From Hyphomicrobiales bacterium (lineage in GTDB: Bacteria > Pseudomonadota > Alphaproteobacteria > Rhizobiales > Xanthobacteraceae): a stretch of 64,000 nt of DNA. Positions 9,122-54,199 of the stretch are shown piece after piece (within the stretch, counting starts at the first letter, position 1; each line of letters begins with the position of its first letter). A model generated the notes under the pieces. The model made no database searches. It was given only the letters and a program-made list of their open reading frames with translations, and was not told the DNA's origin. The position numbers and the translations under genes are program-made. Where the stretch lies: positions 1 to 64,000 of the forward strand of contig JAFKKM010000031.1 in the NCBI GenBank assembly GCA_017305555.1, written 5' to 3'.

Positions 9122-9598
9122 ATGGTGGACAAGGTTCCGATGACCCCCGGTGGTCATACTGCGCTTGAGGTCGAGTTGAAGCGGCGCCAATCAGAGGATC
9201 GGCCGCGCATCATCGAACTGATCGCGGAGGCTCGCTCGCATGGCGACCTGTCGGAAAACGCCGAGTACCATGCCGCCAAGGAAGAACAGTCGCATAACGA
9301 GGGCCGCATCGCCGAGCTCGAGGACAAGCTGGCGCGCGCCGAAGTGATCGACGTCACCAAACTGTCCGGCGATACCATCAAGTTCGGCGCCACCGTGACG
9401 CTGATCGACGAAGATACCGAGAAGAAGGCGGTGTGGCAGATCGTCGGCGAAACCGAAGCCGATGCCAAGAAGGGCCGCATCTCGATCACCTCGCCCCTGG
9501 CGCGCGCGCTGATCGGCAAGACCAAAGGCTCCTCGGTCGAAGTGATGGCGCCGGGCGGCGCCAAGGCTTACGAGATTGCCAAGGTGGAGTGGCGCTGA
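9122..9598 (+). CDS. greA: transcription elongation factor GreA
   Basis: 158 residues, the usual GreA length. The N-terminal coiled coil carries the acidic tip [22 protein letters not shown] (split here as [11 protein letters not shown]), whose D and E residues stimulate RNA cleavage in backtracked RNA polymerase; the C-terminal FKBP-like domain follows ([21 protein letters not shown] and [14 protein letters not shown]). It sits 206 bases after carB with its own upstream region and ends in a strong terminator, so it is probably a single-gene unit. Confidence 0.97.
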
Positions 9599-9625
9599 GC
9601 GCCCTCCCTGAATTGCGAGGTCAAG

Positions 9626-9653
9626 AAAAAGCCGCGGATGTCGCGGCTTTTTT
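9626..9653 (+). terminator. intrinsic terminator after greA
   Basis: AGCCGCG and CGCGGCT form a 7-bp stem (extended by A-T pairs) around GATGT, followed by a run of T. The 234 bases from here to the next gene hold nothing I can name. Confidence 0.9.
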
Positions 9654-9887
9654 GCGTCTTGACGGAACATTGACCTCAAATCAATGCTGGCGAATCGGAA
9701 TATTCGGCGGGACCGGTTGTTAGCTCCCGTTGGATGAAATCGCGAACAAGGGGGACGCGACACCCGATGCGCAACGGCCTTGTGATTTGATCGCGGGTTA
9801 TGCCTGCGTACAACGACGGCGGCACTTCACTCTATTTTTCGTTTCAACGTTATGCGCGGACCAACTCCGCAAACCAGGGGGTAAAAA

Positions 9888-10289
9888 ATGGACCAGACGC
9901 TTTCCAAGTGGCAACCGACGATATTGAGCCTTCTCCGCTTCATCATCGGCCTGCTGCTGCTGCAATACGGCATCGCGAAGATTTTCAAATTTCCGGTGCT
10001 GCCGTACTTCGCCAGTATCCCGCCGCTGATCGTGGTGGCCGGTACCATCGAACTGATCGGCGGCGCGCTGCTGCTGCTGGGACTGTTCACGCGGCCGGTG
10101 GCGTTCATCCTGTCCGGACAGATGGCTTTCGCCTATTTCCTCGGCCACATGTTCAAGGCTGCGAATCCGGTCTTCCTGCCGTTGGTAAACGGCGGCACGT
10201 TGGCGATCGCGCTCTGCTTCACCTGCCTCTATCTCGCGACGGCCGGCGGCGGCCCGATCAGCCTCGATGCGATGCTGCGGAAGAAGTAA
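9888..10289 (+). CDS. DoxX-family membrane protein
   Basis: 133 residues with four hydrophobic segments; the pattern LLRFIIGLLLLQYGIAKIF, then GTIELIGGALLLLGLFTRP and GQMAFAYFLGH, is the DoxX/DUF417-like signature. Family members are small inner-membrane proteins; some are linked to thiosulfate oxidation or to redox stress complexes, but the role here is unknown. The start is supported by CAGGGGGT six bases upstream. It is convergent with the TauE/SafE gene, sharing a bidirectional hairpin. Confidence 0.85.
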   Translation: MDQTLSKWQPTILSLLRFIIGLLLLQYGIAKIFKFPVLPYFASIPPLIVVAGTIELIGGALLLLGLFTRPVAFILSGQMAFAYFLGHMFKAANPVFLPLVNGGTLAIALCFTCLYLATAGGGPISLDAMLRKK

Positions 10290-10300
10290 CGGCTAATAAG

Positions 10301-10320
10301 CCCGGGAGCACTCTCCCGGG
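10301..10320. terminator. perfect hairpin between convergent genes
   Basis: CCCGGGAG and CTCCCGGG form a perfect 8-bp stem with loop CACT, directly before the stop codon of the opposite-strand gene. There is no T run, so it would work as a weak or protein-assisted terminator. Confidence 0.5.
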
Positions 10321-11085
10321 TCAGCCCTTCAGGAAGAAGATTACGGTGAGCGCCGCGCCAACCAGTACAACGGTGGCGCGGATCACTTTGATGGGGACGT
10401 TACGCGCGACGCTGACGCCCCAATAACCGCCCAGCACCGACGCCACGATCGTCACCAGTGCTTGCGGCCAGTGTACAAGGCCGCCGGCGATCAGCAGCGC
10501 CGCCGAGACGATCTGAATCAAAAATGCAACGAGGTTCTTGACCGCATTGTCTTCGTGATAATCGCCGCTGCCGATGATCGCGAGCGCGGCCAGCATCATG
10601 ATGCCCATGCCGGCACCGAAGAAGCCGCCGTAGATCGTTGCCAGCGCCATCACCGCGAAGGCGACACCGCGGGTCGCCAAGCCGCCGTTGCCCCTCTGCG
10701 CCAGCGGCTTGGTCAATTCGCGAATGCGATCGCTGAAGGCGAACATCAGGGTCGCCGACAACAGCAGCCACGGCACTAGCGGACGAAAGCCGCTGTCACC
10801 GATCCGGATCAACAACAGCGCGCCGATGGCGCCGCCGGCCAGGCCGATCAACGTGAACGGCAACATGCGCCGGAAGTGTGTGCGGATCTCGGAGCGATAG
10901 GCCACGACGCTCGCGAGATTGGCCGGCGTCAGCGCCACCGCGCTGGTGGCGTTGGCGTCGAGCGTCGGCAGGCCACAGGCGACCAGCGCCGCGAAGGTCG
11001 CGAACGTGCCGCCACCGGCAACGGCATTGACGGTCCCGGCAGCAAACCCCGCCACCGCAAGCAGAAAGATTTGGAAGAGTGTCAC
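10321..11085 (-). CDS. TauE/SafE-family sulfite/anion exporter
   Basis: 254 residues with about eight membrane segments and the duplicated family motif: AGTVNAVAGGGTFATFAAL near the N-terminus and YGGFFGAGMGIMMLAALAI in the second half. Family members move sulfite, sulfoacetate or other small organosulfur anions. I take the GTG at 11085 as start because AAAGGGG lies six bases upstream and the first membrane helix begins at once; an upstream in-frame start would add a 44-residue low-complexity arginine-rich extension that does not look real. Substrate unknown. Confidence 0.85.
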   Translation of the reverse strand: MTLFQIFLLAVAGFAAGTVNAVAGGGTFATFAALVACGLPTLDANATSAVALTPANLASVVAYRSEIRTHFRRMLPFTLIGLAGGAIGALLLIRIGDSGFRPLVPWLLLSATLMFAFSDRIRELTKPLAQRGNGGLATRGVAFAVMALATIYGGFFGAGMGIMMLAALAIIGSGDYHEDNAVKNLVAFLIQIVSAALLIAGGLVHWPQALVTIVASVLGGYWGVSVARNVPIKVIRATVVLVGAALTVIFFLKG

Positions 11086-44410: not shown

Positions 44411-45445
44411 ATGACGGAAACACATTCCTCTGCGGCTCCGCAGCAAACTCTCATGGACATTGCGATGGCCCCCTATTCAATTCTCGATCTGGTTCGCGTC
44501 ACTGAAGTGACCGATGCGCGCGGCGCGCTCGACAATGCGCGCGATCTTGCCGCCCACGCCGAGCAATGGGGCTACACCCGTTTCTGGGTGGCCGAACATC
44601 ACAACATGGCCGGCATCGCCTCGGCTGCGACGTCGGTAGCCATCGGCCACATCGCGGCTGGGACAAAACACATCCGCGTCGGCGCCGGCGGCGTGATGCT
44701 GCCGAACCACGCGCCGATCGTCATCGCGGAGCACTACGGCACCCTGGAGCGGCTGTTCCCCGGCCGCATCGATCTCGGGCTCGGCCGCGCGCCCGGTACC
44801 GATCAACTGACCATGCAGGCGCTGCGCCGCAGTCTCACCAATGCCGACAACTTTCCGCACGACGTGCTGGAATTGCAGGCCTACTTCGCCGAGGTCGCGC
44901 CGGGTCAGCGCATTCAGGCGGTGCCGGCGGCGGGCACCCATGTGCCGTTGTGGATTCTCGGCTCCTCGACCTATGGCGCGCAGGTCGCCGCCGAGTTCGG
45001 TTTGCCTTACGCGTTCGCCTCGCACTTCGCGCCGGCTCAACTGATGCCGGCACTGGATATCTATCGCGCGCGTTTCAAGCCCTCCGCGCAACTCGCGAAG
45101 CCCCACGCCATGGTCGGCATCAACATCGTCGCGGCTGACACCGATGCCGAAGCGAAGCGGCTCGCCACCACGCAACAAATGTCGTTCACCAACATTTTCC
45201 GTGGCACACGGGGCCTTTCGAAGCCGCCGATCGACGACATCGAAACATATTGGACGCCGATGGAAAAGGCACAGGTCGCGCAGATGCTCGGATGCACCAT
45301 CGTCGGCGACCTCGATACGGTGCGTGCCGGTGTTGCCAGCCTTGTCGAGCAGACTGCGGCGGACGAGTTGATGATCGTCTCCGACATCTTCGACCATGCC
45401 GCGCGGCTGCATTCGTATGAACTGATCGCGCAGGCGATGCGTTAA
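44411..45445 (+). CDS. LLM-class flavin-dependent oxidoreductase (luciferase-like)
   Basis: 344 residues of the bacterial luciferase-like TIM barrel: [31 protein letters not shown] is the hallmark AEHH segment, followed by [41 protein letters not shown]. Members use FMNH2 or F420; the AEHH subgroup uses flavin and is often called a MsnO8-like oxidoreductase. Substrate unknown. It ends three bases from the convergent exporter gene's stop (they overlap by four bases), so the two lie back to back. Confidence 0.88.
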
Positions 45446-47178
45446 CCGCCAATCACGATGCTCCGCTGCATCCGCTGTGCGACGCTCGCGCGATGGGTGA
45501 TGGCGACGATAGTGGTCGACGCGCAATGCTGCAACAGCGCGTCGAGTACGCGTGTCTCGGTCGCCGAATCCAATGACGACGTGCTCTCATCGAGGACCAG
45601 GATATCCGGCGCAAGTAATAGCGCGCGGGCGATGCCGAGCCGCTGGCGCTGTCCGGCGGAGAGATCGATGCCGCCCTGCCCCAGCAGCGTGTCGTAGCCT
45701 TGCGGTAACCGCATGATATCGGCGTCGATGGCAGCGATGGCGGCCGCATTGCGGATGTCGGGCGTCCCCATCGTTGGCAAACCGATGGTGAGATTTTCCG
45801 CTACGCTGCCGGTGAAGACGTCGATCTCGTGCGGCACCACCACGATACGCCGCCGTAATTCGCCGAGCGGAATCGACTCAAACGGCTTGCCGTCGAGCAG
45901 AATGGCACCGCTTTCCGGCCGCCGCGCGCCGAACAACAGGCTCGCCAAGGTGCTCTTGCCAATGCCGCTGGGACCGACCACCGCCACCTTGTCGCCGGGC
46001 GCGAGCGAGAACCACAGGTCGCGCAGCACCGGCGTCTCCGCGCCGGCATAGCGAAACGACAGGCCGGTGACATCGAGCCGCGCCCCGTGCGATTGCTGCT
46101 GGACCGATGCGCCGCCGACATCCTCGTGCGGGCCGGCAGCGATATCGGACAGCCGTGCCACCGACACCGTCATCGCCTGAAAATCGTCGAAGGTTTTCAC
46201 CAAGTTCAGCACTGGCACCGCCAATGAGCCGCCGACCGACAGGAACAACACGAAATCGCCGATGCTGATGCCGCCGTCGATGACGCGCAGGCCGCCGACC
46301 AGCGCGATCGCCGCCGTGATCAATCCGCCGGCGAACCGGCCGACCGCATCAAGCCCCGCCGACATCCGGATCACCGCGAAATGCGCGTCGAGATCGGCAG
46401 TCAGGCATTGCTCGAAGCGACGTTCCGCGAAGCCATGCGCCGAGTTGAAGCGCAAGGTCGCGACGTAGGCAATGGCCTCGACCAAATGCGCCCAGTAGCG
46501 GCTGCGCGCCTCGAACCACGCCCCCTCGCGCGCACGCAAGGCGCGAGCGAACAGCACATGCAACACTGCCAGCGCCACGACAATCGCGATGACGATGAGC
46601 CCGACTCGCGCGTCGACCACCAGCATCGCCACCGCCAGCACCGCGATGGTGCCGAGGCTCAGCACGCCTTCGATCAGGTTGTCGCTGGCGCCCTGCGCGA
46701 GCCGTTCGGCTTCCTCGAAAGTGCGCCCGAGCAGCCCCTGATCGCGGCTTTCCTTCCGATCCACCGGCAGCCGCAGCACGGCGGCGAAGGCCGGCTCCAG
46801 CAAAGCGCGGCGCAGTTCGAGCCCGGCGGCCGCCGACAAGAGCCGCCGCATAAACGCGCAGGCGGCATCCATCAGCGCGATGCAGCCGAGCGCGGCACCA
46901 ACCGCGATCACCGCCATCGCGGCGTGCGAAGGAAACACGTTGTCGATCAGATGCGCGAGCAACGCCGGCGGCGCCAGCGCCAGCGCGCTCAACACCAGCG
47001 ACACGACCAGTGCCGGCACCATGCGGTGGCGCTGATGCCAGCCGAGCCGCAGCAGCACCCGTAACAGGCGCGGCAATCCGCCCGTGCTGCCGGCCTCCAA
47101 TAATCGCGCCAGCCACGCGATATCCGGCACGACGACAGCTTCCGCGCTGGCATTTTCCTGAATGCGCTTCGCGCTCAT
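45442..47178 (-). CDS. ABC exporter (membrane plus ATPase) of the graspetide cluster
   Basis: 578 residues, a half-transporter of the exporter type. About 55 soluble residues come first, then a six-helix membrane domain (about 70-345), then an ATPase domain: Walker [13 protein letters not shown]-loop [18 protein letters not shown], signature [15 protein letters not shown] (Ala for Gly), Walker [10 protein letters not shown], switch THRAS. There is no C39 peptidase at the N-terminus, so it would export a peptide without cutting the leader. Its ATG overlaps the stop of the ATP-grasp gene (ATGA), a strong sign of joint function. Likely exports the modified peptide. Confidence 0.88.
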
Positions 47179-48158
47179 GGATTTTCGAGCAGGTCGGCCA
47201 TGGCGTCGGCCATCGGCGCACCGGTCGACAGTTCGACCCAATACCACTGGCCGTTCGGATTGAGTTCGAGGAACACATACTCGCCCTGCGGCGTCACGAT
47301 GAGGTCGAACGCACCGAAGCGCAGGCCGCAGGCCTTGAGGTAAGCACGCAGCGCGCGATCCACCTCATCCGGAAGATCGACGATGGTGTGCGGCAGCTTG
47401 TCGGTATCGACCGCGCGCCAATCCTGCTCCGCGCCCTTGACGCCCTGGCTGTCGATGCGGCAGCAGAACAGTTCCTTGCCGATGATGGTGACGCGCAACT
47501 CGTGATCCTTGGTGATCGCCTCTTGCAGATAGGTCGGGCAAAGTGAAATGGATTCTTTGAGCAAGGCGAATTCAGACGGCGGGATCGGCCGCGTATAGGC
47601 AACGTAGTGCTCGCCCTCGACGTAATGGCTGCCCATCAGCATCGGCTTGCAGATCACCCCGTCCGGACAGGTGGCGAAGAAGGCCTCGGCCTCGTTCGGA
47701 TCGTTGGTGATGATCGAGCGCGGCACCCGCAGCCCGAGACTGCGCGCCAGCCGCAACTGCGGAAACTTGCGCTGATGGCGGCGGTTCTCGTCGGGATTGT
47801 TGATCCACGGCACCCGCGCGTCCATCGGCATGAAGCCCATCAGCTCGCGCATCTCGCCCTGCACGTATTCGATGACGCCGTCGTCATCGACGCCCGGGGG
47901 CGGCAGCGGCGTCTCCGGCTTGCGCATCCAGACGCTGCGCACCCCATGCGGAAACACGCAAGTACGGTTCCACTTGTCGGTGATGGTGATGGTGCCACTC
48001 AATTCGTCGCTCATCGCGAGGCGATACTCCTCGTGGAAATGATCGGTATTGAGCCGGAAGCACGGCACACCGCGCTGCTCCAGCCGCTCGAGCACGGCAT
48101 CGACGTGCGGATCGAGCTTGGTGGAAATCATCAGAACGCTTTTCGGCGCGGCGGTCAT
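47175..48158 (-). CDS. ATP-grasp ribosomal peptide maturase (graspetide ligase, MvdD-like)
   Basis: 327 residues. N-terminal pre-grasp domain (VLMISTKLDPHVDAVLERLE, RLNTDHFHEEYRLAM), then the ATP-grasp fold: substrate-binding NNPDENRRHQRKFPQLRLARSLG (the family's NP..n...K.Q.QL.AA..GL pattern), GVICKPMLMG lysine strand, LQEAITKDHELRVTIIG, and metal-binding FGAFDLIVTPQGEYVFLELNPNGQWYW. These are the marks of MvdC/MvdD ligases that make omega-ester or omega-amide links between Ser/Thr/Lys and Asp/Glu of a precursor peptide. A precursor gene lies 91 bases upstream; the exporter overlaps downstream. Confidence 0.9.
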   Translation of the reverse strand: MTAAPKSVLMISTKLDPHVDAVLERLEQRGVPCFRLNTDHFHEEYRLAMSDELSGTITITDKWNRTCVFPHGVRSVWMRKPETPLPPPGVDDDGVIEYVQGEMRELMGFMPMDARVPWINNPDENRRHQRKFPQLRLARSLGLRVPRSIITNDPNEAEAFFATCPDGVICKPMLMGSHYVEGEHYVAYTRPIPPSEFALLKESISLCPTYLQEAITKDHELRVTIIGKELFCCRIDSQGVKGAEQDWRAVDTDKLPHTIVDLPDEVDRALRAYLKACGLRFGAFDLIVTPQGEYVFLELNPNGQWYWVELSTGAPMADAMADLLENP

Positions 48159-48249: not shown

Positions 48250-48480
48250 TCAGTTGCCCAGCACGTCCGACGACAGATCGGAATCCGAGGTGCGGCCCGA
48301 GGTCGATGACACGTTGCGCGAGGTCGACGACTTGTGGAACAGCAGCGTGCCGCGCCAGGTCTGGGTGATCGGATCGTAGTAACCGAGCGCATCGTCTTCG
48401 TACTGCTCCAGTGTGTAGGGCTTGGAATTTGCAAGAACGAAGGGCAGCGGCTTCGCGTTCTGCTTGTCGTTGAGATGCAT
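48250..48480 (-). CDS. graspetide (ATP-grasp-modified) precursor peptide
   Basis: 76 residues. The leader (1-50) includes PLPFVLANSKPYTLEQYED and YYDPITQTW (residues 34-42), similar to the YDPxTQ element found in actinobacterial ATP-grasp target peptides. The C-terminal 26 residues are dominated by Ser and Thr with acidic Asp66, Asp68 and Asp72 and no Cys, ending DVLGN: a fitting substrate for side-chain ester formation. Start supported by AAGGAA seven bases upstream. First gene of the precursor-ligase-exporter set. No leader-cleaving protease is visible nearby. Identified by context and composition, not by a database match. Confidence 0.8.
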   Translation of the reverse strand: MHLNDKQNAKPLPFVLANSKPYTLEQYEDDALGYYDPITQTWRGTLLFHKSSTSRNVSSTSGRTSDSDLSSDVLGN

Positions 48481-48572: not shown

Positions 48573-48590
48573 CCCCCCGTTCACGGGGGG
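48573..48590. terminator. perfect G/C hairpin upstream of the precursor gene
   Basis: CCCCCC-GTTCAC-GGGGGG, a perfect 6-bp GC stem with no T run. It lies between the membrane-gene operon and the precursor gene, so it could end the former or form part of the precursor's 5' region. Apart from it I see only weak promoter-like hexamers in 48481-48627. Confidence 0.45.
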
Positions 48591-48627: not shown

Positions 48628-48954
48628 TCACAACCCAACGATCCGCAACAGACAGATCAGCGCCAGCGCGACGAGGCAGATCAGGCAGGCGCCGTACCAG
48701 AGCATCGAGCCCCAGTACCAAAGCGGATTGGCCTCGCGCGAGGTGATGCCGAACTTCTCCGGAATGATGCCGCTGTGCCAAGCATCGCGCAGCAGGTGAA
48801 ATATCAGCACGCCGACGACCGACGCGCCGGCGAGCCCAACTGCCGGCGCGGTGATCGGGTAGTCGGCTGCCGTCGCCATCGTCAGATGCAGCAGACAGCC
48901 GAGCGCTGCGCAGAGCACGGCGGTGCGGGCGATCTGGCGGAGAACATCGCTCAT
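48628..48954 (-). CDS. small integral membrane protein, unknown function
   Basis: 108 residues with three hydrophobic helices: TAVLCAALGCLLHLTM, AVGLAGASVVGVLIFHLL and LWYGACLICLVALALICLL. A short polar loop HSGIIPEKFGITSREANPLWYW links the last two. Start at 48954 overlaps the stop of the upstream gene (ATGA), so it is translationally coupled to the spermidine-synthase-like gene. I do not recognise the family. It is the last gene before the graspetide precursor on this strand. Confidence 0.75.
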   Translation of the reverse strand: MSDVLRQIARTAVLCAALGCLLHLTMATAADYPITAPAVGLAGASVVGVLIFHLLRDAWHSGIIPEKFGITSREANPLWYWGSMLWYGACLICLVALALICLLRIVGL

Positions 48955-50510
48955 CGCCGCGCCGCTTTCACGTCGCACACCGCGCGGCCGGCCAAGAGCC
49001 GGTCCACCGGCGTCCAGTCGTCGGTGAGGATCGCGCCGCAGGCTTGTGGCCAGCGCGCACGGGCAGCAGCGAGATCGAAGCGCCGCCATGTCACGGGCTG
49101 CATGCGTACGGCGTCACCCGCCTCCATCACCGTGGCATCGACGGTAAGTTGCGGCAGACGCAAAGCGTGCTCGGGCGATAGCCATGCCGCGACGACGATA
49201 TTGGTGGTGCTGCCGGTGGGCGTTTCCGCCACCCAGATATCGACCGCTGGAAACACGCTCATCAATGTGGCCGCGATACTCAGCGCCAATAGCGGCGGAT
49301 CGGCGCGGTCGATGACATTCGATAGATAGACGCCGGACGGCGTCAACCGCGTCGCCACGTCGCGATCGAATTCAGTAGTGACGAGATGCGGCGGCACGCT
49401 GCGCGAGCGATAGGCATCCATCAGCACCACATCGTAGACCTGCGCCCGTGGCAACGCGCGCAGCACGGCGCGGCCGTCGCCGATCAGGGTGTCGAGGCGG
49501 CCGTTGCGGCCCGCCCACATGATGTCGCGCGCTATGGCGGCAACCTCGGCATCGAGTTCGATCACGGTGGCGGCCACCGGTTTATCCGCACTCGCCCATG
49601 CGCGCGGCAGGGTCGCGCCGCCCCCGCCGATCACGAGCGCACGCGGTGCCGCAGCTTTCTCGAACGCAGCCTGCGCGAGACGGTCAGCCAGCGCCGCGTA
49701 GCCGAGATGCAGACGCTGCGGGCGATCGCGGTCGGAGGCTGAGTGGACACCCTCGTCGAGGATCATGAAGCGCAGCAGGCCGCCGCCGGCGAGCGGCTTG
49801 TCGAGCAGGCGGATGCAGGTGTAACGCGATTCGACGAGACACTGTTTGCCGCCGAGCCACGGCAGCACGCCGATCGTCGCCAGCACGAGACCGTAGACCG
49901 GCGCGACGATGGCGGGCTTTCGCGCCGGCAGCGCAAGCGCGCCCAACAACAGCCAGACGCCACCGGCAAGCGTGGCCAGGCCCGCCGCGCCGAACCTTTC
50001 CAGCACGACGAAGCCGGCCAGCACGGTGCCGGCGACACTGCCGATGGCGGAGGCCGCGTAGATCGCGCCGACCATGCGCGGCAACGAGAGTTGCGTCATT
50101 CGCGCGGCGAGACGCAACGCCAGCGGCGAGACGAAGCCGGCGGCGAAACTCGGCGGCGCGGCCAGTGCGGCAATCGCCGCCACCGCATCGAGGCCAAAGC
50201 CGTTCTCACTTGAAAATGCCGTCGCCACCGGTCCGATCAGCACCGGCATCAGCATCGCCGCGACGCCGGCCGCGAGCCACATCGCCGAGAGCCAGCCGCG
50301 CAACGCGCGCGACGTCGCCGCCTCGCCGCTCGCGAGCCCGCCGAGCACATGCCCGGCGGTGAGCCCGAGCAACACGCTGGCAATCGCGGCCGACCACGGC
50401 AGCAGCGATTGTCCGAGATACGGCGCGCCGAGCCGGACGATGGCGAGTTCGATCGCCAGCGACGACGCCGCCGACAGCAACACCGCGAGCGGCAGCAGAA
50501 GTCGGATCAT
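48951..50510 (-). CDS. membrane-anchored spermidine-synthase-like protein
   Basis: 519 residues. About six membrane helices (residues 1-215) precede a soluble Rossmann domain of the spermidine synthase / methyltransferase type: RALVIGGGGATLPRAW and TVIELDAEVAAIARD bind a nucleoside cofactor, and YDVVLMDAYRSRSVPPHLVTTEFDRDV is the active-site region. Such membrane-fused forms are a known family of unclear reaction; whether it moves an aminopropyl or methyl group cannot be told. Both ends overlap neighbours by ATGA. The frame stays open to 51128, but the ATG at 50510 fits the first helix and the coupling. Confidence 0.82.
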   Translation of the reverse strand: MIRLLLPLAVLLSAASSLAIELAIVRLGAPYLGQSLLPWSAAIASVLLGLTAGHVLGGLASGEAATSRALRGWLSAMWLAAGVAAMLMPVLIGPVATAFSSENGFGLDAVAAIAALAAPPSFAAGFVSPLALRLAARMTQLSLPRMVGAIYAASAIGSVAGTVLAGFVVLERFGAAGLATLAGGVWLLLGALALPARKPAIVAPVYGLVLATIGVLPWLGGKQCLVESRYTCIRLLDKPLAGGGLLRFMILDEGVHSASDRDRPQRLHLGYAALADRLAQAAFEKAAAPRALVIGGGGATLPRAWASADKPVAATVIELDAEVAAIARDIMWAGRNGRLDTLIGDGRAVLRALPRAQVYDVVLMDAYRSRSVPPHLVTTEFDRDVATRLTPSGVYLSNVIDRADPPLLALSIAATLMSVFPAVDIWVAETPTGSTTNIVVAAWLSPEHALRLPQLTVDATVMEAGDAVRMQPVTWRRFDLAAARARWPQACGAILTDDWTPVDRLLAGRAVCDVKAARR

Positions 50511-51118
50511 GCCAGCGCCGCTTGGGGCCGCGCCAGTGCGACGATGGCGATCGTCGCCCCCAGCGCCACCGCGACGAGAGCGATACCGAGTAATGTCGCG
50601 CGCGTGCCGAGCACGTCGAGCCACCACCACAACACGCAGAGCACGCCGCAGACGCTGCCGGTGGCGCCCACGCCGTAGACCAGCCCGGCCACGGCGTGAC
50701 TTCGCGACAACGCCAGCGCGGTGGTCATCAACAATGGCGTCGCGATGCCGAGAGCGAGGCCCGCCGGCAGGCACGGCGCCGCGACAAACGTGACGATGCG
50801 CCACGGCGCGGCCGGCGCGGGGCTGAGGATCGCAGCGTCCCACCACCGCATCGCCAGCGGCGTGACGGCGATGGCAAGCGCGGCCATCAGCATCGCGCCG
50901 GCTGCGACACAAAGTCTCTGCCGCAGGTCGGAGGCGGCGGCGACGCGGCCGCCGATATGGTTGCCCAACGCCAGCGCCAGCAGGAACGCGGCGATGATCG
51001 CGGTCCATGTATCCGTGGACATGCCAGCGTGCGGCGCCACCAGCCGCGCCATCGTGATCTCGAAGCCGAGGGCGCAGAACGCCGTCAACCCTTCCGCCAG
51101 AATCAGGACAGCGAGCAT
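50507..51118 (-). CDS. polytopic membrane protein resembling the membrane half of the SpeE-like protein
   Basis: 203 residues with about six membrane helices (LILAEGLTAFCALGFEITMARL, TWTAIIAAFLLALALGNHIGGRV, VAAPCLPAGLALGIATPLLM). The FEITMARLVAPHAG and GNHIGGRVAA patterns match the membrane domain of fused spermidine synthase-like proteins and parallel IELAIVRLGAPYLG and GHVLGGLASG of the next gene, so the pair may be a duplication in which this copy lacks the enzyme domain. ATG at 51118 chosen; an upstream extension is arginine-rich and improbable. First gene of the three-gene unit, divergent from the kinase gene. Confidence 0.75.
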   Translation of the reverse strand: MLAVLILAEGLTAFCALGFEITMARLVAPHAGMSTDTWTAIIAAFLLALALGNHIGGRVAAASDLRQRLCVAAGAMLMAALAIAVTPLAMRWWDAAILSPAPAAPWRIVTFVAAPCLPAGLALGIATPLLMTTALALSRSHAVAGLVYGVGATGSVCGVLCVLWWWLDVLGTRATLLGIALVAVALGATIAIVALARPQAALA

Positions 51119-51214
51119 TGGAATCCATTCGACAAACCGGGATGGTTCGCCAATATGCCGGCTCGGACAGGGCCAGCGTACCCCTCGTCCCGGGGGGAGG
51201 ACGAACGCACGGCC

Positions 51215-53485
51215 ATGTCGCACTGGCTACCGAACCGCATCATGCAGACCGCGGCGCTCATTTGCGTCGGCGCCTGCCTGCTCGTGTTCTGGCTGGTACT
51301 GAACCAGCCATGGCTCGGCATGACGCTGGCGCCGCAGGCCGAGCCAGGTGCGGTACGCATCGTCGCCGTCGACCCCGATGGGCCGGCGCGCATGGTGCCG
51401 GTGCCGTCGCGGCTGGTCGCGATCGGCTCCGATAACGGCAGCCGGATCGAACTGGTTACCGGCGACCTCGTCGAGGAGCCCGACACGCTTCAGACCTACG
51501 CGATGGCCGCGCAGTTCATGCAGCGGCAGACTTTGCTCGCCAGCATGCTGCGCGACAAGCGCGTGACGCTCCATGTCGAATCCGAGCGCGGCCCCCTTGA
51601 GGTGATCGTGACGCCGACGCGGCGGCCCATCACCGACCTGCCGTCGTCGTTTTGGGTGCAGTTCATCACCGGCATGGGGTCGCTGCTGCTCGGGGCCTGG
51701 GTGCTGGCGCTGCGACCGCAAGATTTGCCGACGCGGCTGTTCGCCGTCGCCGGCGCGATGATCATGATCTCGGCCTATGGCGCAGCGGTGTATTCATCGC
51801 GCGAACTCGCCATCGACGGCGGACTCGTTCGCGTGCTGAGCGCGCTCAATCACATCGGCGCGCTCGGCTTCGGTGCGGCGATGATCGCACTGTTCCTGCT
51901 CTATCCGCGCCCGCTGGTGAATCCGCGCCTGCTGCTGGCGCTGCCCGCGATCACCATCGCATGGCTTGCGATAGATATCCTGCGCTTGCCCGAGGAGCAG
52001 GCAACGGGCGCGCAACTGCCGATCCTCACTTACATGCTCGTGCTGGTCGGCGCGATCGGCGTGCAATGGTTCGCCACGCGCCGCGATCCGCGCGGCCGCG
52101 CGGCGTTGCGCTGGCTCGGCCTTTCGGTGATCGTCGGCGCAGGCGCGTTCGTGGTGCTGATCATCGCGCCGATTTTGGTCAACGCCGCACCGGTGATGCA
52201 GCAGGGCCATGCCTTCGGATTCTTCCTGCTGATCTATGCGGGATTGGCGCTCGGCGTCAGCCGTTACCGGCTGTTCGATCTCGACGAGTGGGCGTTCCGG
52301 GTGATGTTCTATACCGGCGGCGTCGCGCTGCTGCTGGCGGTGGACGCGCTGTTGCTTTACGTCATGCATCTGCAACACGATGTCTCGTTCAGCATCGCAC
52401 TGCTGGCGCTCGCGTTCATCTACCTGCCGGCGCGCGACTCGTTGCGCGCGCGCTTGCAGCCGCGCAGCCGCGTCGAGAGCCACGAACTGTTCCGCGAGGT
52501 GGTGGACGTCACCTTCGCCGCGTCGGCGCAGGAGCGCTCCGGGCGCTGGCACGGCCTGCTGCGGCGGCTGTTCGATCCGCTGGTGATGACGCCGCTCGAA
52601 CCTGCGGTCGACGATGTCGAAATCGGGCAGGAAGGCCTCGAGGTGCGGCTGCCCGCCATCGCTGACACGCCGTCCCTGCAACTGCGCTATCCGTGGCGCG
52701 GCGAAAAGCTGTTCGGCAGTTCGGATCGCGATCTGGCGCGCGAACTGGTACGGCTGATGCGTTATGTCGAGGTCAGCCGCGACGCTTTCGAGCGCGGCGG
52801 CGTCGAGGAGCGGCGGCGCATCGCGCGCGACCTTCACGACGACGTCGGCGCGCGGCTGCTGTCGGGGCTCTACAAGACGGAGGTGACCGAGACTCATCGC
52901 GTGCTGCGCGACGCGCTGGCCGATATCCGCACCATCGTCAGCGGCCTTTCCGCCGATCAACTGCCGCTCGGCCAGGTGATCGCGGCGCTGCGCCACGAGG
53001 GGGGCGAACGCCTCGCCGCCGCCGGAATCGATCTGCATTGGCCGCTCGCCGCCGTGGACGACAGCGCAAAACTGCTCGACTATCGCATCTATCGCAGCAT
53101 CGCGTCTGCACATCGCGAAATCGTCAGCAACGTCATCCGCCATGCGCAGGCAACGCGCGTCAATGTCACGGTGGCGCAAGAGGATCGAATGTTGTCGATC
53201 CGCATCACCGACGACGGCGTCGGCCTCGATCCGGCGAACGCGAACGGCAACGCTCAAGGCAACGGGTTGCGCGGCATTATCCGCCGCCTCGACGATCTCG
53301 GCGGATCATTCGCGGCGTTGCCGGTGGCGCGCGGCAGTGCGTTCGAAATTCGCATTCCGCTAATCGCGGATGCGGTCGCCACCGACGATGCAAATGAACC
53401 CCATATTCAGGGGGTGTCGTCCCACCCGGCTCGCGCCTACAGTGAGCCTGCCGATGCCGCGCAACGGATGTACGACAGGTCATGA
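51215..53485 (+). CDS. ComP-like polytopic sensor histidine kinase
   Basis: 756 residues. One N-terminal helix, then an extracytoplasmic region (about 33-135; GMTLAPQAEPGAVRIVAVDPDGPA looks PDZ-like), then about eight membrane helices (about 143-395), a linker, and a NarL-class kinase core: H-box ERRRIARDLHDDVGARLL with His541, and HATPase with Asn639 (REIVSNVIRHA), DDGVGLDP and GNGLRGI. The order PDZ, membrane block, HisKA_3, HATPase resembles ComP, the receptor of a modified peptide pheromone in Bacillus. The response regulator gene follows after nine bases. Start uncertain: GGGGGGAGG lies 16 bases upstream. Confidence 0.85.
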   Translation: MSHWLPNRIMQTAALICVGACLLVFWLVLNQPWLGMTLAPQAEPGAVRIVAVDPDGPARMVPVPSRLVAIGSDNGSRIELVTGDLVEEPDTLQTYAMAAQFMQRQTLLASMLRDKRVTLHVESERGPLEVIVTPTRRPITDLPSSFWVQFITGMGSLLLGAWVLALRPQDLPTRLFAVAGAMIMISAYGAAVYSSRELAIDGGLVRVLSALNHIGALGFGAAMIALFLLYPRPLVNPRLLLALPAITIAWLAIDILRLPEEQATGAQLPILTYMLVLVGAIGVQWFATRRDPRGRAALRWLGLSVIVGAGAFVVLIIAPILVNAAPVMQQGHAFGFFLLIYAGLALGVSRYRLFDLDEWAFRVMFYTGGVALLLAVDALLLYVMHLQHDVSFSIALLALAFIYLPARDSLRARLQPRSRVESHELFREVVDVTFAASAQERSGRWHGLLRRLFDPLVMTPLEPAVDDVEIGQEGLEVRLPAIADTPSLQLRYPWRGEKLFGSSDRDLARELVRLMRYVEVSRDAFERGGVEERRRIARDLHDDVGARLLSGLYKTEVTETHRVLRDALADIRTIVSGLSADQLPLGQVIAALRHEGGERLAAAGIDLHWPLAAVDDSAKLLDYRIYRSIASAHREIVSNVIRHAQATRVNVTVAQEDRMLSIRITDDGVGLDPANANGNAQGNGLRGIIRRLDDLGGSFAALPVARGSAFEIRIPLIADAVATDDANEPHIQGVSSHPARAYSEPADAAQRMYDRS

Positions 53486-53494
53486 GTTGAGCCG

Positions 53495-54199
53495 ATGGCA
53501 TCCACCCCTACGCCCCTGCCCCGCAAGCGGCGCGGCCTGATTGTCGAGGATCAGACCGACACCCGCGCATGGCTGGTGCGGACGCTCGGCGTTGCCTTCG
53601 ACGGCATCGCCATCGGCGAAGCGGCGACGTTTCAGGCGGCACGCGACTGGATCGCCGCACAGCCCCGCACCTTCGCGGACCCCGACGCCAATGCGCCGCG
53701 CGATATCGCGCTGATCGACATCGGCCTGCCGGACGGCAACGGCATCGATCTGATCCGCATGCTGGCCGACGGTCATCCGCAGATTCTGCCGATCGTGACG
53801 ACCATCTACGACGACGACGCGCATCTGTTCGACGCCATCGCCGCCGGAGCGAAAGGTTATCTGCTCAAGGACCAGCACGCCGACACACTGGTCGGCTACC
53901 TGCATCGCATCGATGCGGGCGAGCCACCGCTATCGCCCTCGATCGCGCAACGGATGCTGACGCATTTCGCCAAGCGGAGCGTCGTGGATGCGAACGTCGA
54001 TGCCGAAGCCGCATTGACGCCGCGCGAACTCGACATATTGCGGCTGCTCGGCCGCGGGCTGCGGGTGGCGGAAGCCGCGCGGGTACTCGGCCTGACGCCG
54101 CACACAGTCGCGGGCTATGTCAAGACGGTGTATCGCAAGCTCAATATTTCCTCGCGCGCCGAGGCTGCGATCGAAGCGATGCGGCGCGGATTGGTGTGA
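53495..54199 (+). CDS. LuxR/NarL-type response regulator
   Basis: 234 residues. Receiver domain (about 14-140) with acidic pocket VEDQTD, phosphorylation site Asp75 (IALIDIGLPDGNGIDL), Thr and Lys in VTTIYDDD and GYLLKDQ; C-terminal LuxR helix-turn-helix (about 168-232: LTPRELDILRLLGRGLRVAEAARVL, TPHTVAGYVKTVYRKLNISSRAEA). Cognate partner of the kinase just upstream. By position its targets could be the divergent membrane genes and the precursor peptide, which remains to be shown. Confidence 0.92.
   Translation: MASTPTPLPRKRRGLIVEDQTDTRAWLVRTLGVAFDGIAIGEAATFQAARDWIAAQPRTFADPDANAPRDIALIDIGLPDGNGIDLIRMLADGHPQILPIVTTIYDDDAHLFDAIAAGAKGYLLKDQHADTLVGYLHRIDAGEPPLSPSIAQRMLTHFAKRSVVDANVDAEAALTPRELDILRLLGRGLRVAEAARVLGLTPHTVAGYVKTVYRKLNISSRAEAAIEAMRRGLV

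Follow-up and report, generated by a model that had tools for sequence, protein, structure and literature searches.

Organization of the locus

The window, by which we mean the whole analyzed stretch of 64,000 nucleotides, carries a small gene followed by an ATP-grasp ligase gene and an ABC exporter gene on the minus strand, together with a divergent two-component pair and several palindromic sites:

45442–47178, minus strand: ABC exporter, a permease–ATPase fusion with no C39 peptidase (ABC_membrane and ABC_tran domains)
47175–48158, minus strand: ATP-grasp ligase, a predicted macrocyclase (profile scores, AlphaFold2 model, conserved active-site residues)
48250–48480, minus strand: gene of a very probable graspetide precursor, 76 aa (six close homologs beside orthologous ligases, purifying selection)
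48253–48330, minus strand: predicted core, residues 51–76, SSTSRNVSSTSGRTSDSDLSSDVLGN, with D66, D68 and D72 as candidate donors (conservation in seven loci)
48355–48384, minus strand: leader element 2, GYYDPITQTW, residues 33–42 (conservation in 10 alphaproteobacterial precursors)
48418–48447, minus strand: leader element 1, LPFVLANSKP, residues 12–21, the likely ligase-recognition motif (conservation in close and distant homologs)
48573–48588, no strand: operator-like palindrome CCCCNNGTTCNNGGGG 5' of the precursor gene (0–1 mismatch in 7/7 loci)
48628–48954, minus strand: 108-aa membrane protein, a cluster neighbor (homologs in L002, L003, L006 and L007)
48951–50510, minus strand: fused MFS/spermidine-synthase-like protein, a cluster neighbor (NF037959, 324 bits)
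50507–51118, minus strand: half-length MFS_SpdSyn membrane protein, a cluster neighbor (NF037959, 88 bits; adjoins the fused gene elsewhere too)
51181–51196, no strand: one-mismatch operator-like site within the divergent promoter of the kinase and mfs1 (conserved in L083, L084, L085, L104 and L105)
51215–53485, plus strand: ComP-like sensor histidine kinase (HisKA_3, HATPase_c; one TM helix, an outer domain, nine TM helices)
53399–53414, no strand: one-mismatch operator-like site in front of the response regulator gene (80 nt), close to the 3' end of the kinase gene (same position in five other loci)
53495–54199, plus strand: NarL/LuxR-type response regulator (Response_reg and GerE; co-located homologs)

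The stop codon of the ligase gene and the start codon of the ABC gene overlap (ATGA), and the ABC gene is kept 3' of the ligase in Afipia, Bosea, Nitrobacter and a further genus (G438). The order precursor–ligase–ABC holds in seven Afipia/Bosea-type loci and, with divergent precursors, also in Nitrobacter and G438. A domain search of the exporter found no peptidase family. The fused MFS/spermidine-synthase-like gene lies 5' in all Afipia/Bosea loci, with the half-length gene conserved beside it and often with the 108-aa membrane protein; searches of Nitrobacter and G438 did not turn these genes up, and they are therefore regarded as optional neighbors, for which a tailoring, transport or unrelated role is possible. 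In the Afipia-type genome G159, these two genes and the kinase pair are kept and the graspetide genes are absent. In another Afipia-type genome (G072, L104:12708-12870), the operator and the last 13 precursor codons (TSDFGLSSDAPGN-stop) are left and both ligase and exporter are gone. Judged from its sequence this remnant is a deletion scar, and the joint loss of ligase and ABC gene is what would be expected if the genes work together.

The probable precursor gene and its predicted product

The ORF starts with ATG, preceded by an AAGGA ribosome-binding site, and its GC3 of 0.82 is like that of the ligase gene. Codon comparison of the close loci gave a dN/dS of about 0.09 for residues 11–43 and again for residues 44–76, and 0.66 for residues 1–10. 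As six homologs hold the same position relative to the ligase, with low dN/dS and a GC3 of 0.82, this is a real coding gene and no chance ORF.

The tail composition described in the first-pass annotation was reproduced from the ORF: the last 26 residues (51–76) hold 13 Ser/Thr, three Asp (D66, D68 and D72, spaced 2 and 4 apart) and no Cys, and end in LGN. Among the 240 ATG ORFs of 40–150 aa in the window, the precursor is the only one whose last 26 residues contain at least 12 Ser/Thr, at least three Asp and no Cys, and YDPx(S/T)Q occurs in none of the others. The unmodified peptide with Met1 has a computed monoisotopic mass of 8476.13 Da, and trypsin, cleaving at R55 and R63, is predicted to release SSTSR, NVSSTSGR and TSDSDLSSDVLGN across the core.

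Two elements stand out in the leader. LPFVLANSKP is invariant or nearly so across the close homologs, L, F, V, N and P are retained in the distant ones, and the cyanobacterial counterparts read LPFAM and PLMMH. It fits the general leader rule Phhx(1,2)h of a published survey (PMC8939145). The earlier view that the surroundings of this element do not look like microviridin's PFFARFL needs correcting: LPFVLAN differs from it in letters, but LPFVLANSKP is a counterpart of the microviridin-type recognition helix. In the second element, G33, Y35, D36, Q40 and W42 are invariant in the 10 alphaproteobacterial precursors, and the element recurs as Y(D/N)PxxQ in cyanobacteria and as DPxTQ in actinobacterial tgmA. 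The likening of YYDPITQTW (residues 34–42) to the actinobacterial element was borne out: tgmA peptides read LDPATQT and IDPETQI, and a cyanobacterial YDP precursor matches TIGR04186 weakly, exactly at this element.

In the proposed alignment of homologous precursors, D66, D68, D72 and nine Ser/Thr (S51, S52, T53, S54, S59, T60, S61, S65 and S71) are invariant in the seven loci. Variation is seen at positions 58 (S/T/N), 64 (T/I), 67 (S/T) and 70 (S/A), so that positions 58, 64 and 70 are unlikely to be obligatory for rings. Between Afipia and Bosea, 30–31 of the 33 residues from 44 to 76 are identical, against about 54% identity for exporter and kinase.

The gene-level features by which graspetides are recognized are present here: the precursor adjoins an MvdC/MvdD/TgmB-type ATP-grasp ligase, has a hydrophobic leader recognition motif and carries core Ser/Thr before Asp. 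The feature of the product itself, side-chain ester or amide macrocycles, is predicted. On sequence grounds the ORF is very probably a graspetide precursor, and we read the whole gene set as a graspetide (omega-ester peptide) biosynthetic cassette, including the chemistry, export and regulation proposed below, with a probability of about 0.88. The strongest rival, to which we give only a small chance, is that the ligase closes the precursor through a lactam or another single linkage, for instance Lys50–Asp, and not through several Ser/Thr–Asp esters. One microviridin ligase does make a lactam, and K50 does not vary among the seven close loci; yet it lies outside the Ser/Thr–Asp stretch, a Lys at this place is absent in other subfamilies, the only acidic residues of the tail are the three Asp, and no second ligase gene is adjacent, whereas microviridin clusters have both ester and amide ligases.

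The ATP-grasp ligase

The ligase scored 266 bits against TIGR04187 (cut-off 350; an actinobacterial control reached 437 bits), 214 against MvdC (425) and 184 against MvdD (475), and thus lies under every curated NCBIfam cut-off. Its best sequence match was MdnB. The AlphaFold2 model had a mean pLDDT of 91.9; its best PDB match was MdnC with bound MdnA (5ig9, E 5e-30), and the top structural matches were MdnC, AMdnB, CdnC, PruB and PsnB. On this model, the protein can confidently be assigned an MdnC/PruB-type macrocyclase fold. K171, R222, D246, R248, D285, E298 and N300 are conserved in 98–100% of the sampled ligases, and since these catalytic residues are kept, the ligase should be active.

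It is improbable, even more so than the lactam, that the ligase instead couples the precursor to a separate molecule or protein in the manner of RimK, with the peptide as a LysW-like carrier. LysX, ArgX and RimK are indeed the next structural neighbors of the model (E about 1e-13 to 1e-15), but the RiPP macrocyclases match about 15 orders of magnitude better, the TIGR04187 and MvdC scores are far above that of RimK, and the precursor ends in LGN without the C-terminal Glu that LysW has.

Homologs and the wider family

Tblastn-confirmed relatives of the ligase were collected with one genome per species. Six close loci were found: one each in Afipia and Xanthobacteraceae, two in Bosea, and two in bins with a coarser name (Hyphomicrobiales/Proteobacteria). 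In every one, a 76-aa homolog lies about 90–150 nt 5' of the ligase match. No precursor was found in a genome without the ligase, and 3 of 8 genomes of the genus have both. The first-pass annotation had tied its proposal to homologs lying beside ATP-grasp genes elsewhere, and every homolog found adjoins an ATP-grasp ligase. More distant precursors accompany orthologous ligases in Nitrobacter (loci L008 and L078) and in another genus (G438, loci L057/L077). Their leaders match as L.FV..N...P....GYYDP.(S/T)Q(S/T)W, their cores are quite different, and their ligases are 50–52% identical to that of the window. The Nitrobacter core has no middle Asp and retains the outer pair six apart; neither the DxDxxxD donor motif nor this outer pair was found in the G438 core.

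The ligase search also recovered cyanobacterial loci with leaders reading LPFAM...YNPxxQ or PLMMH...YDPxTQT. The DxDxxxD tail occurs in Afipia/Bosea, in both cyanobacterial groups, in one Chitinophagales precursor and in one Tat-type alphaproteobacterial precursor. In a tree of 52 ligases, built without the characterized microviridin ligases, the alphaproteobacterial clade and the cyanobacterial YNP/YDP groups were joined with 100/98 support, apart from actinobacterial TgmB. Only P21, Y35, Q40 and D72 are invariant in the joint precursor alignment, with D66 nearly so. Profile–profile comparison matched the YDPxTQT element alone in the cyanobacterial YDP group (E 0.0019), which leaves common ancestry of the cores unproven, and gave nothing significant for the YNP group. 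Because a leader of LPFV..N..P followed by YDPxTQ, and likewise DxDxxxD, recur in cyanobacteria and the ligases form one clade, the alphaproteobacterial family is not isolated, being linked to the cyanobacterial precursors.

The precursor matched no Pfam or NCBIfam model, nor TIGR04186 or PF14408 up to E 1, whereas actinobacterial peptides used as controls matched TIGR04186 at 1.6e-24 and 1.7e-16. Precursor profile searches of 385 class-level and 397 order-level genomes returned only weak matches beyond the window and G438; three of these (L086, L087 and L092) proved on inspection to be chance matches in unrelated frames. The suggestion of a new graspetide group has to be narrowed for the leader layout and the DxDxxxD tail, which are common to cyanobacterial and Bacteroidota-assigned precursors. 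By its sequences, the family represents a previously unmodeled alphaproteobacterial branch of a known natural-product class, the graspetides. It is not named in the literature searched, though a large graspetide survey may hold an entry in a supplementary list (PMC8939145).

It is very unlikely that the ORF is a conserved non-substrate, such as a leader-binding or regulatory partner of a substrate encoded elsewhere: partner-dependent graspetide systems are known (PMC13097080), but the window has no other Ser/Thr–Asp-rich small ORF, and position and leader agree with known-type precursors of other phyla.

A contig titled Flavobacterium sp. UBA8409 (L011) carries a precursor and ligase nearly identical to cyanobacterial L010, and is for this reason probably misbinned. 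Five Hyphomicrobiales genomes (L069–L073) have a twin-arginine precursor (TRRRFLRQ or DRRRFLKQ) directly 5' of a TIGR04187-like ligase (in L072, ligase at 9471-10412 and precursor end at 9350), with a C-terminal core like MTGSWTYS(D/N)TTRC...SDQDSHPDG, which suggests a ring peptide exported folded via the Tat system. In L074–L076, the precursors upstream of ligases contain TKTxxxxESDD-like units, which L075 and L076 carry as repeats; these are probable multi-core graspetides in Alphaproteobacteria.

The operator-like site and the two-component pair

Upstream-region alignment revealed that each of the seven loci has the near-palindrome CCCCNNGTTCNNGGGG, 90–133 nt 5' of the precursor ATG; in 1000 Markov resamples, chance placed such a site in at most one of the seven. 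A reading as terminator of the upstream genes was rejected, because the palindrome stays by the precursor when about 1 kb of other DNA lies between it and the upstream genes (L002, L003 and L007). The 5.17 Mb genome holds two exact sites, that of the precursor and one inside a phage primase-like gene; as CCCCNNGTTCNNGGGG was derived from these loci, this count is supportive and not independent. The other genomic matches on C60, the exact one included, were dropped as lying in or beside unrelated genes. Most one-mismatch matches belong to a dispersed palindrome, CCCCGCCTTCGCGGGG, a REP-like repeat found on many contigs of genome G000, often as inverted pairs about 100 nt apart. In other families of Hyphomicrobiales, too, exact or near-exact copies of CCCCNNGTTCNNGGGG lie close to homologous kinases (L113:3754, 61 nt 5' of the kinase; L114:3779 and 4885; L119:3989). 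They give independent support for the site and suggest that the regulon of this kinase/regulator family is wider. In Nitrobacter L008, the copy 5' of the precursor is degenerate, and Nitrobacter G061 has neither the site nor the kinase.

According to sequence and AlphaFold2 model, the kinase consists of TM1, an outer domain at about 36–132 (about 100–105 aa), nine further TM helices and HisKA_3. ComP-type kinases have ten TM helices, the first two of which are separated by an extracytoplasmic PDZ domain (PMC9620489). Neither Pfam nor a PDB sequence search identified a PDZ domain in the outer region, and no stretch of its match to 2ymu passes on its own. Afipia, Bosea, Nitrobacter and G438, four lineages in all, have the kinase next to the cassette, though the arrangement differs. 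A dedicated kinase–graspetide pairing was not upheld, 15 of the 17 order-level kinase-bearing genomes being without a precursor match.

As copies of the operator-like site also lie at the kinase/regulator pair, transcription of the cassette is likely to be controlled by the ComP-like kinase and the NarL-type regulator. That the graspetide is itself a secreted signal sensed by this kinase, closing an autoinducing precursor–kinase–regulator circuit, is possible but rather doubtful, because some genomes have the kinase family and not the precursor. Autoinduction would fit the frozen core, the operator that precursor and kinase genes have in common, and the Nitrobacter genome G061, from which kinase and operator are missing together; presence of the kinase family without graspetide genes shows autoinduction not to be required.

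Proposed model of maturation

Considering the above results, we propose a plausible model by analogy with known graspetides. LPFVLANSKP would bind the ligase, probably assisted by YDPxTQ; the ligase with ATP would phosphorylate the core Asp side chains (D66, D68 and D72), and Ser/Thr hydroxyls N-terminal of the Asp would attack to give side-chain esters, with a loss of 18 Da per ring, probably forming two or three nested (hairpin) rings. In ThfB and related systems, phosphorylated Asp is attacked by Thr/Ser on its N-terminal side to give nested rings, and Ser replaces Thr well (PMC12291112). The best cross-family register would be T53–D72 with S59–D66, and D68 with a third partner in Afipia/Bosea: T53/S59 and D66/D72 are each six apart, and Nitrobacter and the YNP group of cyanobacteria show this register too. 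It is put forward as a hypothesis with many Ser/Thr alternatives. A perfectly symmetric register (54–72, 58–68, 60–66) is not preferred, because position 58 is Asn in L004. The stretch from the Ser/Thr cluster to the first Asp, variable across families, fits a hairpin loop. The ABC protein would export the ring product, a putative protease would remove the leader, the exporter itself having no C39 peptidase, and the kinase and regulator, which may act at CCCCNNGTTCNNGGGG, would probably switch transcription.

Comparison with known systems

To our knowledge, the benefit to the producer is not known for most graspetides, and the two-component link, if true, offers a route to asking what use these peptides are to their producers, with CCCCNNGTTCNNGGGG as a testable regulatory site. 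The pair resembles ComP/ComA of Bacillus in the succession of TM1, an outer domain of about 100 residues, nine TMs and HisKA_3 and in its NarL/LuxR-type regulator, but the ComX pheromone gene is absent at the window locus and the kinase family occurs also without graspetide genes. An autoinducing circuit, if true, would be a Gram-negative counterpart of ComX–ComP using an ester-ring peptide.

Microviridins and marinostatin (MdnA, MdnB/MdnC) share the ligase fold, the catalytic residues and the leader P-F-hydrophobic element; unlike microviridins, the window has one ligase and not two, lacks the TxKxPSD(D/E)(D/E) core and PFFARFL, and scores below the MvdC and MvdD cut-offs. The actinobacterial tgmA/tgmB systems (fuscimiditide/amycolimiditide, prunipeptin) likewise have the precursor directly before a TIGR04187-type ligase, an N-terminal recognition motif followed by the DPxTQ element, and a core of S/T then D, and the ligase model closely matches the structure of PruB (9bou), the prunipeptin ligase. 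In contrast to tgmA/TgmB, neither TIGR04186 nor PF14408 matches, and the ligase stays at 266 against 350 bits, outside the actinobacterial branch. The leader reads LPFV where group 13 graspimiditides (fuscimiditide/amycolimiditide) have RPFG, which places the precursor outside that group, and a PIMT-like methyltransferase (tgmC) was not found among the neighboring genes scanned, so an aspartimide is not expected.

Compared with the cyanobacterial YDP/YNP precursors (L009–L012, L015–L025, L036 and L039), loop lengths differ, there are extra acidic residues, ligase identity is 33–37% and precursor profile similarity is marginal; these systems nevertheless share the P-F/L-h-M ... Y(D/N)PxxQ leader, a S/T cluster followed by the DxDxxxD tail, and ligases of the same clade. 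The cassette adds an alphaproteobacterial graspetide branch missed by current models and tied to cyanobacteria through leader layout and DxDxxxD.
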